From an uncultured Desulfovibrio sp. (lineage in GTDB: Bacteria > Desulfobacterota > Desulfovibrionia > Desulfovibrionales > Desulfovibrionaceae): a DNA stretch of 64,000 nucleotides. Below, piece by piece: positions 2,647 through 13,717 of the stretch. The stretch spans positions 1-64,000 of the forward strand of contig CAJXYU010000009.1 of assembly GCA_913063155.1 (NCBI GenBank), given 5' to 3'. Every line of letters starts with the position of its first letter. The stretch's first letter is position 1. Under the pieces are notes generated by a model. The model was not told where the DNA came from, ran no database searches, and saw only the letters and a list, made by a program, of their open reading frames with translations. Position numbers and translations under genes: made by a program.

Positions 2647-2682
2647 AGGGGTGGCCTACTTGACCACCCTGATATTTTTTTG
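2647..2682. terminator. Hairpin with A and T tracts at the integrase 3' end
   Basis: An A tract, then GGGTGG (2649-2654) pairing with CCACCC (2664-2669), then a T run gives a stem able to stop transcription from either side. The integrase stop codon (2656-2658) lies in the loop. Confidence 0.5.
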
Positions 2683-3825
2683 CCTTTTTTCGACTTGTCG
2701 CTCTCGCCGTAATTGCTCCAGCTTTTCCGCTGGGGCTTGGTCTACCCGCATTTCGTCTAGATATATGGATGTGGTGGTTTCCCGTTGATGTCCAAGCATG
2801 TTCCCAATCTGCTTTTGTGAGACTCCATTAGCATCCAGTTCATGGGCTCCCCAATGGCGTAGGGCGTGGCCGGTGATCTTTTCCACCTTGATATCCATTT
2901 CATCCTTTATGCGCTCCTGAAGGCGCGAAAAAAGGTCCTTGATGAATCTGTTGTTGCGATAGAAGCGGTCTCCTGTCTCGGGATTTATGAATACGTATTG
3001 GTCGGCGTCTCCTCGACGTTCAAAACGTTTTTTCAGGATGTCGAGCATTGTATCATTGAGATAGACCCAAACCACTTTTCCCCCGCCGCCTTTTCGCTTT
3101 TTATGGACGAAGCCGGCCTTTCGGTCTGCAAAGTGGATCAGGTCCCAAGATAGGCAACGGACAGAGCGTCCGCGTTGGATCGTGTTGCACATTATTTCAA
3201 TGTAATCGGATTCATCTCCCTGTGCCGCCGCCCGGTAGAGCTCCACGGTTTCAAAGGTGGGTACCGGGCGGACATAGTGGTTTTCCGCAAAGGGTTCTAT
3301 GTCCCGGCAAGGGTTGTTGATGTTCTGGCGTATCCGTTCGGCTCCCGTCAAAATCCCACGGTTTATAATATGGTTGAATACCGCGCCAATTTCCCGCTTA
3401 TGCCTATTACTCGTTTTTGACGAACATTTTGGTTTCACGGCTAGTTCGTACATGTGTCGTTCGATCAGGGCGGATGAAATTTCTTCCGGCGCGGCGTTGA
3501 TCCCGTCCGGGTGGTTGACTTTAAGGAAGGCTAAAAAAGCGCGGTAGACGCCGCGCTTGTAAACGTATGTGTTTCTATCCCAGCGGGGTTCTCCCCAGCT
3601 TAGATAGTCATTGGAGGCCGACAAGTAGGTTGTGACGGTCGGCGCATTGGCTTTTTCCCACTCCTGGGTCATCCGGGTTTCTTCCTCGTTTGCCCACTCC
3701 TTCGCTGCCTTCTTTGTTGTAAACCCTTGCTTGCTTGCCAGTCGTTTGCGGCCTTTTTTGAGCCACACCCGCCAGCGTTGCCCTTTTGCCGTTTCGTACT
3801 TGCTGAATGCTCTTGTCAGTTCCAT
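2656..3825 (-). CDS. int: Prophage tyrosine integrase
   Basis: This 389-residue tyrosine recombinase catalyses integration and excision at the tRNA-Ser site. An N-terminal AP2-like region (residues about 5-55, with WRVWLKKGRKR) would bind arm sites. A SAM-like core-binding domain follows (about 60-180). The catalytic domain holds an Arg in RGRSVRCLSWD (about 215), the HxxR pair in HALRHWG (about 322) and the tyrosine in TSIYLDE (about 355). It reads leftward toward attL, the standard place for a phage integrase. The ATG at 3825 has only a weak GGGAT ribosome site and the gene may be translationally linked to the small frame upstream. Confidence 0.95.
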   Translation of the reverse strand: MELTRAFSKYETAKGQRWRVWLKKGRKRLASKQGFTTKKAAKEWANEEETRMTQEWEKANAPTVTTYLSASNDYLSWGEPRWDRNTYVYKRGVYRAFLAFLKVNHPDGINAAPEEISSALIERHMYELAVKPKCSSKTSNRHKREIGAVFNHIINRGILTGAERIRQNINNPCRDIEPFAENHYVRPVPTFETVELYRAAAQGDESDYIEIMCNTIQRGRSVRCLSWDLIHFADRKAGFVHKKRKGGGGKVVWVYLNDTMLDILKKRFERRGDADQYVFINPETGDRFYRNNRFIKDLFSRLQERIKDEMDIKVEKITGHALRHWGAHELDANGVSQKQIGNMLGHQRETTTSIYLDEMRVDQAPAEKLEQLRRERQVEKRQKNIRVVK

Positions 3826-7294: not shown

Positions 7295-7915
7295 ATGGCT
7301 ATCAAACCCATACTTTTCAGCGGTCCTATGGTGAGGAAGATTCGCTCCGGTCACAAGACGCAGACTCGACGGGCTGTGAAGCCTTACCCGGTCTTCTCCA
7401 AGACAGAACTGGGCGTCGACTATTTCGTCTTTGAACAGAACGGTCCGCTGCCCGTATCTGGTATGACTCCCAACATTCGCATGAACGCTCTTTATCAGGT
7501 CGGTGACATCCTTTGGGTGCGTGAAGCCTTCGCCGCGTTTGACGCGGATTGGAAGCACCCAGGAAAGCCTAGCGATCTGGAAGACGGTCCATGGCCGAAT
7601 ATTGCCTACGCTGCCGACGAGCCGCTTAAAGGTTTTGGCCGTCCCTCTATCCATATGCCTCGGTGGGCATGCCGTCTTTTCCTCCGCGTTGTCTCTGTGC
7701 GTGTCGCACGACTCCACGCCATGAGCGAGGAAGACGCATACGTGGAAGGTGTCGTGATTGGCTCCGCCCCCTCTGACTCTTGCTATGATGGATTCCAAAA
7801 ACTTTGGGATGACTTCTACGGCGAATGCCAGAGCGAGTGTTGGGATGCCAACCCATGGGTATGGGTCTTTGAGTTTGAACGCACCACCAAGCCCGCCGGA
7901 TGGCCGGGGAATTGA
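7295..7915 (+). CDS. ASCH-like phage protein
   Basis: The ATG at 7295 is chosen because GGAGGG lies upstream and because MAIKPILFSGPMVRKIRSGH is the usual opening of this phage family (pattern KPILFxxxMVxAIxxGxKTQTRR). The KTQTRR motif is at residues about 25-30. A WVREAF segment (about 75) and a C-terminal WVWVFEFER strand complete an ASCH-like, RNA-binding beta-barrel pattern. The protein is 206 residues. Its function in phages is not settled. It lies directly before the DNA methyltransferase gene and may act in the same early module. Confidence 0.65.
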   Translation: MAIKPILFSGPMVRKIRSGHKTQTRRAVKPYPVFSKTELGVDYFVFEQNGPLPVSGMTPNIRMNALYQVGDILWVREAFAAFDADWKHPGKPSDLEDGPWPNIAYAADEPLKGFGRPSIHMPRWACRLFLRVVSVRVARLHAMSEEDAYVEGVVIGSAPSDSCYDGFQKLWDDFYGECQSECWDANPWVWVFEFERTTKPAGWPGN

Positions 7916-7922
7916 TAGTTCT

Positions 7923-8990
7923 ATGACACTCACAGTTGGAAGTCTTTTTAGCGGGTTTGGCGGCCTGGAACTCGGCCTGGAATGGGCCGGAATGGAAGTT
8001 CTCTGGCAAGTCGAAAACAACCCGCATTGCGTCCGGGCCCTGGAAGCGAATTGGCCCCACGTCAAACGGTACGGAGATATAAATGAACTCGACTTCACAA
8101 GCCTTGCTCCCGTTGACCTCCTCTGCGGGGGATTCCCCTGTCAGCCCTTTTCCAACGCCGGGAAGCGAAAAGGCAAAGCGGATGACCGCTACCTCTGGCC
8201 GAGAATGCTTGAGACAATCAAGGCTGTCCGGCCCACTTGGATTCTTGCTGAAAATGTTGATGGAATCCGATCAATGGTCTTCGAGCGAACACCTTTTGAA
8301 GTGGTCAGCCGAACCGTTACCCGCGGTGAGGACCGTGACGATTTCCACTCTGTACTCACACAACAAGAAATCATGCAGCTTGATCAAGTATGCCAAGAAA
8401 TCGAAGAAGCGGGTTACGAAGTCCAACCGATTGTTGTTCCGGCTTGCGCCGTTGATTCACCGCAAATCAGAGCCCGTATTTTCATCGTGGCCCACGCCAA
8501 AAGCTTCGGCCGGCGGACCGGATTTCGCCAAGGTGGAGAGGAGCCCGAAATCGGGGTTGTCTCTCCCGACAGTGGCCGTGTGGTCAACGCCGATTGCCAG
8601 CGACGGGGAGAAAGGCGGTCCGAACATGAGGTACAGCAACGGCACTCTGGGCCTTCCGGCGCAAGCAGCGAAGGCAGTATGGGCAACACCGACCGTTTCC
8701 GGGAACGGGAATCGGAAGGGTTCCTCTCAGAAGGCGGGGGACGGCTTGAGTACCCAGGCGAAGGAAGCCCACTTGACTTCTGGAAGGACCACGGAACCGT
8801 CTACTGCCAGCACGACAACAAAGTCAGACGCACCCCCTCCATTGAATCCGGAATTTGTCTGTTGGCTGATGGGGTTCCCGGAAGGGTGGGCCAAATCAGT
8901 GGGTTCGGCAACTCAGTCAGCCCCGTCGTCGCCTACCAAATAGGTGGGGCCCTGGTGGCAAGTCACAAGCAATACACGTTTTCAAAATAA
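7923..8990 (+). CDS. DNA (cytosine-5) methyltransferase, phage type
   Basis: This 355-residue enzyme would transfer a methyl group from S-adenosylmethionine to cytosine C5 in a short DNA site, probably to guard phage DNA from host restriction. Motif I is FSGFGGLELG (residues 8-17). Motif IV with the catalytic cysteine is GGFPCQPFSNAGKRKG (about 65-80). Motif VI is AENV (about 105). Motif VIII is QIRARIFIVA (about 180). Motif X is GFGNSVSPVVAYQIG near the C-terminus. The target-recognition region (about 195-300) is polar and unusual because a second gene is read in another frame there. No partner restriction gene is present. The ATG at 7923 is set by the motif I distance. Confidence 0.93.
   Translation: MTLTVGSLFSGFGGLELGLEWAGMEVLWQVENNPHCVRALEANWPHVKRYGDINELDFTSLAPVDLLCGGFPCQPFSNAGKRKGKADDRYLWPRMLETIKAVRPTWILAENVDGIRSMVFERTPFEVVSRTVTRGEDRDDFHSVLTQQEIMQLDQVCQEIEEAGYEVQPIVVPACAVDSPQIRARIFIVAHAKSFGRRTGFRQGGEEPEIGVVSPDSGRVVNADCQRRGERRSEHEVQQRHSGPSGASSEGSMGNTDRFRERESEGFLSEGGGRLEYPGEGSPLDFWKDHGTVYCQHDNKVRRTPSIESGICLLADGVPGRVGQISGFGNSVSPVVAYQIGGALVASHKQYTFSK
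8083..8943 (+). CDS. Gene overprinted in the methyltransferase, WPTP / LNPEFVxWLMGFPxGW phage family
   Basis: This 286-residue frame lies wholly inside the methyltransferase gene, shifted by +1. It looks real for two reasons. First, its ATG has GGAG exactly six bases upstream (8073-8076), an ideal site with no reason to exist in the methyltransferase frame. Second, its protein shows motifs I recall from a phage family found beside dcm genes: SGPLGFLLKMLMES, RLLFRLAP, the repeated WPTP/WSTP/WATP segments, and the end LNPEFVCWLMGFPEGW. The function is unknown to me. Because its best-conserved part lies opposite the recognition domain of the methyltransferase, the two proteins must evolve together. 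Confidence 0.7.
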   Translation: MNSTSQALLPLTSSAGDSPVSPFPTPGSEKAKRMTATSGRECLRQSRLSGPLGFLLKMLMESDQWSSSEHLLKWSAEPLPAVRTVTISTLYSHNKKSCSLIKYAKKSKKRVTKSNRLLFRLAPLIHRKSEPVFSSWPTPKASAGGPDFAKVERSPKSGLSLPTVAVWSTPIASDGEKGGPNMRYSNGTLGLPAQAAKAVWATPTVSGNGNRKGSSQKAGDGLSTQAKEAHLTSGRTTEPSTASTTTKSDAPPPLNPEFVCWLMGFPEGWAKSVGSATQSAPSSPTK

Positions 8991-9057
8991 TATGACATTT
9001 TTCGCTCTGGCTTGGCTGGTTGTGGCAGTGCAGCGTTTGGTTGGGCAGGGCGTGGCT

Positions 9058-9136
9058 AGGCAAGGAAAGTATTTAACGAGGCAAGGCGTGGCCGGGTGCG
9101 GCACAGTTAGGCAAGGCTAGGCGCGTCGAGGCAAGG
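9058..9136. repeat. Four phased AGGCAAGG direct repeats, iteron-like
   Basis: AGGCAAGG occurs exactly at 9058-9065, 9079-9086, 9109-9116 and 9129-9136. The starts are 21, 30 and 20 bp apart, close to whole helical turns, so bound proteins would line up on one face. Degenerate TGGCNNGGC-like copies extend left to about 9010. The tract has no convincing gene and lies before the RAMP-like gene. Confidence 0.65.
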
Positions 9137-9156
9137 AAAACAACAAAGGATTCGTC

Positions 9157-12572: not shown

Positions 12573-13100
12573 TTGTTTAAACCGAAGTCCTTCCGTCTGG
12601 AAGAATTGTTGCCGCCGTCCAGCTTTTTGCCGGTTCGCCTGCGGGTGGTCTACCAACGTGACCCGGAACGCCTCTGGAGATGCTTCCCCGTGCCTTTTCT
12701 CTGGACTCTGGACGCCTTGCGGGAGCGTTACGGCGTCATGACCGTGAACAACTGGTATTTTCTCAAATCCGAGGAGTGGGATAAGCCGTATTGCCGCCGT
12801 TGGTCCGGGTATCGCCCGCTTGATTGCGAGGTTGGCGCAGAGCTTTCCGAGCACCGCTTTTTCAGGGCTTTTGATACCATTTTTCGGGACGTGCAGCCGG
12901 GTGAAGTGTGGGCGGATATGCGGGACAACCCGGACCTGCCATGCTTTAGTTACATCCAGCGGATTGAAGCATATGAGGGGATGGGCTGGTTTCATGCGGA
13001 CTTTGGGACGCATGACCGCTTCGGTAAGGCTATCCGGGTGATCCCCTACAAGGGCAACCGTGCCGGGCTCCCCGAGTACATAGAGAGGGCGGCTGCATGA
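12573..13100 (+). CDS. M15-type (D-Ala-D-Ala carboxypeptidase-like) phage protein
   Basis: This 175-residue protein resembles peptidase family M15_3. RRWSGYRPLDCEVGAELSEH is followed by FFRAFD, giving the SxH(x)6D zinc-binding pattern at residues about 92-101. GMGWFHADFG (about 140-149) supplies the third ligand region. M15 enzymes cut peptidoglycan cross-links. No other endolysin is seen in the prophage, so this may be the lysis enzyme, though it lies about 1.6 kb before the lysis cassette and inside the replication region. It could instead be a non-catalytic relative. The next gene overlaps its end by four bases. Confidence 0.55.
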   Translation: MFKPKSFRLEELLPPSSFLPVRLRVVYQRDPERLWRCFPVPFLWTLDALRERYGVMTVNNWYFLKSEEWDKPYCRRWSGYRPLDCEVGAELSEHRFFRAFDTIFRDVQPGEVWADMRDNPDLPCFSYIQRIEAYEGMGWFHADFGTHDRFGKAIRVIPYKGNRAGLPEYIERAAA

Positions 13101-13717
13101 GAGGATGCCGTCCGTTGACCGACGCGGAGATACGCCGCGCCCTGGACTCTTTTACAGGTCGCCATGCGGTGCGCAACCGCTGTTTGTTTGTGCTTGGGCT
13201 TGTCTGCGGCTTTCGCGTCTCGGAAATGCTTTCTCTGCGTGTCCGGGACGTGGTGGCCGCTGGCCGGGTGCGATTTCTGGTAACGGTGCCGCGTCGGAAT
13301 ATGAAGGGCAGCAAGGAAGGTCGGACAGCCTTCCTTCCTCCCGAGGGGCAGCGGGCGGTTTTAGATCAGGTCCGGGCGTTGGAATATCCGGCCCCGGCCT
13401 TTTTCTTGTTTCGGTCACAACGCGGCGAAAATAGGCCCATAAGTCGGGCGCAGGCGCACCGGGTGCTTGTGGAGTGTTTTACGGCCTGCGGTATTGTGGA
13501 TCAGGTGGCAACTCATTCTTTGCGCAAGACCTTCGCAGACCGCACCTATTCGTATTTCCTGGGGCTGGTGGCCGCCGGTGATGGTGTGGACGCATTTACG
13601 GAAACGTCGCTTGCGTTGGGACATTCGGACCCGGCCAGCACTCGCTATTATCTGAGTTTTCGCGATGAAAAGCGGCGTGATGCAGCCCGAGAGATTGGGA
13701 GAAGTCTGCATGTCTGA
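13097..13717 (+). CDS. Second tyrosine recombinase, catalytic domain only
   Basis: This 206-residue protein has all the marks of a tyrosine recombinase catalytic domain: Arg in CGFRVSEMLSLRVRD (residues about 38-52), HSLRKTF with the HxxR pair (about 140), LGHSDPASTRYYLSF with the second His and the tyrosine (about 178). It lacks the N-terminal core- and arm-binding domains of the integrase at 2656. It sits in the replication region, not at an attachment site, and overlaps a helix-turn-helix gene. It may resolve genome multimers or act as a DNA-binding partner. Its role in this phage group is unknown to me. Confidence 0.85.
   Translation: MRGCRPLTDAEIRRALDSFTGRHAVRNRCLFVLGLVCGFRVSEMLSLRVRDVVAAGRVRFLVTVPRRNMKGSKEGRTAFLPPEGQRAVLDQVRALEYPAPAFFLFRSQRGENRPISRAQAHRVLVECFTACGIVDQVATHSLRKTFADRTYSYFLGLVAAGDGVDAFTETSLALGHSDPASTRYYLSFRDEKRRDAAREIGRSLHV

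Follow-up and report, generated by a model that had tools for sequence, protein, structure and literature searches.

An overprinted +1 reading frame in a prophage cytosine methyltransferase gene as the probable small subunit of a two-chain enzyme

Can a phage gene for a C5 cytosine methyltransferase also carry, in a second reading frame, a further part of the same enzyme? This question is raised by one locus in DNA of an uncultured Desulfovibrio sp. The locus lies in a window of 64,000 nucleotides, by which we mean the whole stretch of DNA that was analyzed. The original prediction described there an 861-nt frame in +1, placed inside the methyltransferase gene and having its own ATG with a GGAG six bases upstream, and these coordinates were borne out (Table 1). 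The prophage portion in the window was recognized by PHROGs matches to integrase, replication protein, terminase, portal, capsid, tape measure, and tail (10 open reading frames scanned, 9 matched). Two integrase-like genes were present in this one prophage region (13097-13717 and 2656-3825), one of 388 aa on the minus strand matching phrog_1 and the other of 206 aa on the plus strand matching phrog_216.

Frame 0 of the methyltransferase gene begins with an ATG at 7923, ends with a stop at 8988-8990, and is open in the 5' direction as far as a TTG at 7758. Its product, here called alpha, matched PF00145 (E 6e-44, best stretch residues 4-122) and phrog_363 (E 8e-70). The frame had been said to keep the methyltransferase motifs, and PCQ, ENV, RARIFIVAH, and GFGNSVSP were all located in it. 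The inner frame runs from an ATG through 286 codons to a TAG, wholly within the methyltransferase frame, with an offset of +1 ((8083-7923) mod 3 = 1). The motifs originally quoted for its product, here called beta, were also present, namely SGPLGFLLKMLMES, RLLFRLAP, the WPTP-type segments, and LNPEFVCWLMGFPEGW. Beta matched phrog_1008, whose label is DNA methyltransferase (E 1e-19, best stretch residues 103-277), and it matched no Pfam or NCBIfam model at E values up to 1. In the window gene alone, the openness of the +1 frame was mildly unusual, with a frame this long arising in 15 of 500 synonymous-codon shuffles.

Another genome from the genus of the window (L109, G533:C45:3-842) carries, at a contig edge, a copy of the beta reading that is 100% identical over 280 residues. 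Between the methyltransferase gene and the next open reading frame of the window, imperfect AGGCAAGGC / GGCTAGGC-like repeats were seen at 9010-9150.

Table 1. Coordinates of the two frames and their parts in the window
Feature	Coordinates	Strand	Details
Alpha, predicted large subunit: C5 cytosine methyltransferase	7923..8990	+	frame 0; 355 aa; motifs I-VIII and X, without motif IX
GGAG, putative ribosome binding site	8073..8076	+	6 nt 5' of the beta ATG
Beta, putative small subunit: overprinted open reading frame	8083..8943	+	+1 frame; 286 aa
Motif IV (GGFPCQPFSNAG; PCQ)	8127..8162	+	frame 0
Beta motif SGPLGFLLKMLMES	8227..8268	+	+1 frame
ENV	8247..8264	+	frame 0
Beta motif RLLFRLAP	8428..8451	+	+1 frame
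Motif VIII (PQIRARIFIVAH; RARIFIVAH)	8460..8495	+	frame 0; closes the catalytic half
Variable region VIII-IX, candidate target-recognition region in beta	8485..8841	+	+1 frame; WPTP/WSTP/WATP repeats, segments starting near 8485, 8581, and 8680
Motif IX (LNPEFVCWLMGFPEGW)	8842..8889	+	+1 frame
Motif X (GFGNSVSP)	8901..8924	+	frame 0

Stop codons in the +1 frame

For the survey of stop codons, 80 viral loci were fetched with an alignment of the catalytic half that combined window-type and actinophage sequences. They are the best 80 of 595 and represent the nearest relatives by catalytic half rather than a random sample of phage methyltransferases. Among these best 80 of 595, the segment from motif IV (PCQ) to motif VIII was free of +1 stops in every locus, against 3.6 expected from synonymous resampling. 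The whole overlap was stop-free in 75 of the 80, with a mean of 0.11 +1 stops against 4.01 expected, and the part of the gene upstream of PCQ was stop-free in only 2, against 3.7 expected. When loci were picked by the whole methyltransferase, the PCQ-VIII segment was again free of +1 stops in 16/16 (1.1 expected). Several genes with an open +1 frame have just 36-45% G+C.

The control set consisted of viral methyltransferases picked by the canonical cellular catalytic half, using an alignment of seven; a single canonical methyltransferase used as the query returned 1 viral locus, which was left out of the set. None of the 80 canonical-type viral methyltransferases of this control contained the nested-type motif IX profile in any frame. 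Their +1 stops in the PCQ-VIII segment stood at 5.67 against 5.77 expected, and the segment was stop-free in 0/78. A chance opening of the +1 frame, for which the shuffles of the window gene alone leave room (15/500), was ruled out by the family stop counts together with this clean control. The original suggestion of a general and under-annotated feature thus held widely for one subfamily and failed for phage methyltransferases as a whole, given the 0/80 among canonical ones.

Of 30 methyltransferase loci from bacterial genomes, 27 did not have the nested form and 3 did (L239, L244, and L246). These three lie in bacterial genomes of the window's own family. The non-nested bacterial loci showed a weak excess of open PCQ-VIII segments (4 of 26 examined among the 27, 1.0 expected). 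As for a +1 frame broken in relatives, a case that the original prediction had raised, stops occurred in 2 (L110 and L121) among the 17 host-family matches listed, most of which are partial and distant.

Motif IX in nested, split, and fused relatives

In one-chain C5 enzymes, motif IX packs the small domain against the large one. In these enzymes, motif IX stands between VIII and X of a single frame, a layout that was not found in the window alpha. Profiles built from 70 nested loci were compared with 20 canonical enzymes. The alpha profile aligned with the canonical one over motifs I-VIII (columns 1-160), skipped the columns of motif IX, and resumed at the end of IX to continue through X. The beta profile gave one meaningful alignment to the canonical enzymes, of 17 columns (E 4.7e-4, probability 32%), located at motif IX and pairing PLNPEFVCWLMGFPEGW with LT.REaARLqgfPddf. 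Against a profile of actinophage methyltransferases, made of three fused chains and two split C-terminal halves, beta aligned over 106 columns (E 7e-15), spanning both the WPTP repeats and motif IX.

A sequence search of beta against the PDB found no methyltransferase; lectins and agglutinins appeared at E 0.066 or worse and were taken as noise. The structural model of beta was poor (pTM 0.27, mean pLDDT 61.9), and a fold search with it in the PDB and viral libraries gave no match at E 0.001 or better. One of the naturally fused enzymes, L249, was modeled as M.HhaI-like along its whole length (Z 22.5, rmsd 3.5, 238 residues), with the recognition region at low confidence.

In the survey of viral loci, the motif IX profile was found in the +1 frame of 76/80 (best 80 of 595), a count that is partly circular since the profile was made from 58 of the surveyed 80; the control used the same profile. 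Of the remaining four loci, three are on contigs that end 213-284 nt past motif VIII, and one (L184) has motif IX in the +2 frame. The placement in L184 suggests a local frameshift or a sequencing error.

Three arrangements of the same parts were met in actinophages. In PFR2, Rita, and Rabbitrun, a single fused chain holds the sequence along with motifs I-VIII and X. In Streptomyces phage Euratis (gp33/gp34) and Mycobacterium phage Blue7 (gp92/gp91), the sequence is split: frame 0 stops a few codons past motif VIII, and the +1 frame holds the recognition region, IX, and X. The mycobacteriophages Spikelee and Rhynn have the nested form. A further 77 Rita-related loci were sorted by form, at a lower score limit than that of the 80-locus survey. 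The fused form accounted for 19, motif IX stood in +1 with frame 0 running on in 30, and 2 were without a motif IX match. In the other 26, motif IX was in another frame while frame 0 stopped no more than 60 codons past VIII; the other frame was +1 in 25 of these, 24 of which stop within 7 codons, and +2 in 1. Across the split and fused actinophage forms, what moves between frames appears to be one and the same domain.

In the split actinophage class, the PCQ-VIII segment was free of +1 stops in 0/23 (23 examined of 25), with 2.7 expected. The N-terminal extension of beta is not kept open there, which fits a later beta start in these phages. In the fused class (L249-L264, L267, and L293), the segment was without a +1 stop in 8 of 17 examined (of 19), with 1.9 expected; the open +1 frame in some fused genes hints at a possible relic of a nested ancestor.

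An in-frame +1 ATG was found shortly 5' of PCQ in 78/81 loci, against 57.0 expected. Shine-Dalgarno-like sites were not clearly enriched, occurring in 44/70 loci versus 35/70 in the control frame, and were not counted as support. The ATG before motif IV, together with a PCQ-VIII extension open in all 80 loci (best 80 of 595), favors a start of its own, and the simplest reading is that beta would be translated from this internal start. The alternative that survives best, although we consider it improbable, is that no internal start is used and that ribosomes shift frame past motif VIII, so that the +1 reading becomes part of a single chain, either a longer or an alternative one. Such a mechanism would agree with the position of the frame switch, which sits at the boundary between VIII and the recognition region, and with the split actinophages, in which frame 0 stops soon after VIII and IX follows in +1 (with X as well in Euratis and Blue7, the two examined over their full sequence). 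However, a shift at VIII does not need the nested +1 frame to be stop-free over PCQ-VIII, as it is in 80/80 loci (best 80 of 595), and the in-frame ATG ahead of PCQ in 78/81 also speaks against it. A frameshift fusion in the window was disfavored, as the +1 frame is open upstream of the would-be shift and the product would be without motif X, which lies in frame 0.

Matches of the beta profile bear on whether beta belongs to the methyltransferase at all. They were collected from 107 loci, 91 found by +1 similarity and 16 by the methyltransferase. This set includes the window's own DNA (L100) and three repeats (L105-L107, which repeat L101, L103, and L104), and in three cases (L009, L010, and L073) both profiles matched the open reading frames. 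Of 111 matches, 110 overlapped a methyltransferase match and lay in its +1 frame; the sole other one (L006, 3648-3947) is just 3' of the main match. No free-standing relative of beta was seen among these 111 matches in the 107 loci. A phage family found beside dcm genes had been proposed for beta; the phage relatives were confirmed, as by the phrog_1008 match, while their position proved to be inside the gene. Likewise, homologues outside the shadow of a dcm gene were seen in no free-standing form and did appear as split and fused parts of actinophage methyltransferases.

A second alternative, still less likely than frameshifting, is that frame 0 encodes a complete one-chain methyltransferase and that the +1 product overprinted on it is an independent phage protein, such as a regulator or an anti-restriction factor. 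Beta does have its own PHROGs family (phrog_1008), and frame 0 is unbroken to motif X. However, motif IX is in beta and not in frame 0, the same sequence forms part of the methyltransferase chain in actinophages, and the matches fall inside a methyltransferase gene in 110/111 cases. Rather than an unrelated protein, beta is most likely this enzyme's own small subunit.

Relatives of the +1 protein were found in 85 phage records at E 0.01. Two features were annotated in 29 of the 60 entries listed from these records, all of them Paenibacillus larvae phages, and in 0/11 of the entries among the 60 that come from other phages; in a separate search, 2 of the 43 non-Paenibacillus entries listed had two features. 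The claim of under-annotation therefore stood in part. In Paenibacillus phage Diva (gp49/gp50), the depositors used the label 'g49 internal gene', and in Escherichia phages K1ind3 (ORF30/ORF29) and fTaEco03 (TE3_032/TE3_033), the inner gene is annotated as 'Mte8-like protein'. For Xanthomonas phage FoX4, the gene listed is the +1 frame. Phage genes surround the match in two chromosome records of E. coli, which list, respectively, one methyltransferase gene and two incomplete pieces, with no inner gene. The latter locus (L326, 2363-3532) lies amid phage genes, and its two incomplete methyltransferase pieces are marked as a pseudogene. Mte8 receives a mention in the available text of PMC5582158. 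The portions available of PMC6070908 and PMC5723332 hold nothing on a nested methyltransferase arrangement, and the accessible extracts of the literature on overlapping, nested, or internal phage methyltransferase genes, two-subunit C5 enzymes, and EcoHK31I did not tie the arrangement to phages.

Selection on the two frames

Substitution classes were scored by their effect in both frames for 61 pairs drawn from the first 107 loci, most of which were found via +1 similarity; results are given for three distance bins of 13, 26, and 20 pairs. In the 13 closest pairs, dNN/dNS for the +1 frame was 0.44 (0.35-0.58) in the overlap against 1.02 before it, and dSN/dSS was 0.32 (0.24-0.41) against 1.01. 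In the more distant pairs (26 and 20), dNN/dNS in the overlap was 0.60 and 0.83, against 0.98 and 0.93 before the overlap, so that the +1 effect faded with distance over the three bins. Frame 0 was constrained both before and inside the overlap in this pair test. In the closest pairs, the p3/p1 change rate was 3.50 before the overlap and 1.03 within it, a figure obtained from the 7 pairs of this bin with changes, one of which is doubled by an identical locus. The substitutions indicate purifying selection on both frames. The claim of a real second gene is backed by this selection and by the depletion of stops in relatives.

A region-wise test used a larger set of 64 pairs from 68 sequences, with frame 0 expressed as dNN/dSN and the +1 frame as dNN/dNS, on an alignment that was made on frame 0 and is thereby biased toward it. 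Frame 0 and the +1 frame gave, respectively, 0.18 and 0.93 before PCQ, 0.22 and 0.57 in PCQ-VIII, 0.90 (0.85-0.95) and 0.64 (0.57-0.71) in VIII-IX, 0.62 and 0.38 in IX-X, and 0.34 and 0.95 after X. When VIII-IX was aligned on the +1 frame (56 pairs), the same picture was obtained, with 1.09 for frame 0 and 0.59 for +1. In the fused actinophage enzymes, whose frame 0 reads this kind of sequence, the constraint was on frame 0 (0.36) and was weak on +1 (0.85; 15 pairs). In VIII-IX, the +1 frame is the constrained reading and frame 0 is near neutral; thus, the target-recognition region is probably read in beta. The polar frame-0 region, which the original prediction took as the specificity domain of the methyltransferase, is probably not that domain, since selection there acts on the +1 reading.

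Several of these measures have limits. In PCQ-VIII, dNN/dNS does not discriminate, being 0.61 (0.41-0.77) in the fused and 0.52 (0.42-0.62) in the split class, where no beta is expected, and before PCQ it was already 0.72 and 0.77 in these two classes. Since the ratio fails to separate the classes, the case for PCQ-VIII rests on the stop counts. In the region-wise test, dSN/dSS, which has few sites, was already 0.54 (0.46-0.68) in the control segment before PCQ and 0.70 (0.53-0.94) in VIII-IX, and it was given little weight. Frame-0-silent changes that would stop the +1 frame scored 0.38 in VIII-IX despite the open frames, which shows that single-change scoring is noisy in this divergent stretch. 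In a leave-cluster-out profile test, which is secondary evidence, the control frame +2 was also above the null in 28/30 clusters, by a smaller margin.

It is scarcely credible that the +1 frame is an untranslated by-product of frame-0 conservation, composition, and repeats: high G+C does lower +1 stops, the window gene gave 15/500 in shuffles, the control frame shares some similarity, and dNN/dNS falls below 1 even in the two classes (fused and split) that should have no +1 product, but the frame is open in relatives with genes of 36-45% G+C, is stop-free in 80/80 (best 80 of 595) against 3.6 expected, passes selection tests with in-gene controls, and has no such signal in canonical phage methyltransferases.

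A two-chain reading and the known systems

The best explanation, to which we assign a probability of roughly 85%, is that the locus would encode one C5 methyltransferase in two chains, alpha and the overprinted beta, similar to M.EcoHK31I and assembling in trans. This reading is drawn from the selection on both frames in relatives, the presence of motif IX in +1 and not in frame 0, and the nested, split, and fused relatives. Frame 0 would make the large subunit, a SAM-binding catalytic domain with motifs I-VIII and X. The internal start at 8083 would make the small subunit, consisting of an N-terminal extension, the variable recognition region with WPTP-type repeats, and motif IX. The two chains would join in trans into an active methyltransferase in which the small subunit may read the DNA target. 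The enzyme probably shields phage DNA from host restriction. We also lean, with less assurance, toward a wider view, in which the specificity domain and motif IX of a large phage C5 subfamily would lie wholly in +1, frame 0 would serve there as a near-neutral linker, and specificity and catalysis would evolve in different frames.

C5 methyltransferases of two polypeptides are described as exceptions in the part of PMC3404938 available, which names M.AquI and M.EcoHK31I. In one phage subfamily, the nested form is the rule (76/80, best 80 of 595 by catalytic half). Outside P. larvae phages, the entries listed often lack an annotation for the subunit that probably sets specificity, and the annotated gene expressed alone would likely yield an inactive enzyme. 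The locus offers two long overlapping proteins that should cooperate, with region-wise selection readable in both frames, and the split and fused forms that occur in nature show how an overlap of this kind may form or resolve.

M.HhaI and other one-chain C5 enzymes share with the window pair the catalytic half and the motif order, and the fused relatives from actinophages can be aligned with them from end to end. They differ in that their motif IX and recognition domain share one chain and one frame. The internal genes of Diva, K1ind3, and fTaEco03 have the same nested +1 arrangement as the window; in the entries listed, the inner product is named DNA methyltransferase, putative methyltransferase, or Mte8-like, without a subunit role. 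M.AquI is a split enzyme whose second, small chain carries motifs IX and X, according to the available part of PMC3404938. It is like the window pair in having a split second chain that bears IX, and unlike it in that motif X is in the small subunit rather than in the frame 0 large subunit; as far as the partial source allows, the actinophage split genes (L133 and L137, with IX and X) are closer to M.AquI than the window is.

M.EcoHK31I (YGGCCR) has a small subunit of 176 aa, and M.EaeI is similar. In a 1995 paper on M.EcoHK31I, the small subunit reportedly came from a different frame within the gene for the large one. If so, it resembles the window in having the small subunit frame nested in the large gene, which in the window is an open, selected frame. 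The window beta differs in length, with 286 aa against 176 aa. As described in the available part of PMC3404938, the large subunit of M.EcoHK31I has motifs I-VIII and X and is predicted to hold the recognition region as well, and motif IX is on the small polypeptide. The window alpha likewise has I-VIII and X without IX, which is found on the second reading. The location of the recognition region may differ, since selection here points to beta (frame 0 0.90-1.09, +1 0.59-0.64); the published placement is a prediction. Within what this partial source gives, the window pair appears to fit the motif plan of M.EcoHK31I, and would thus belong to a two-polypeptide kind that is already known.
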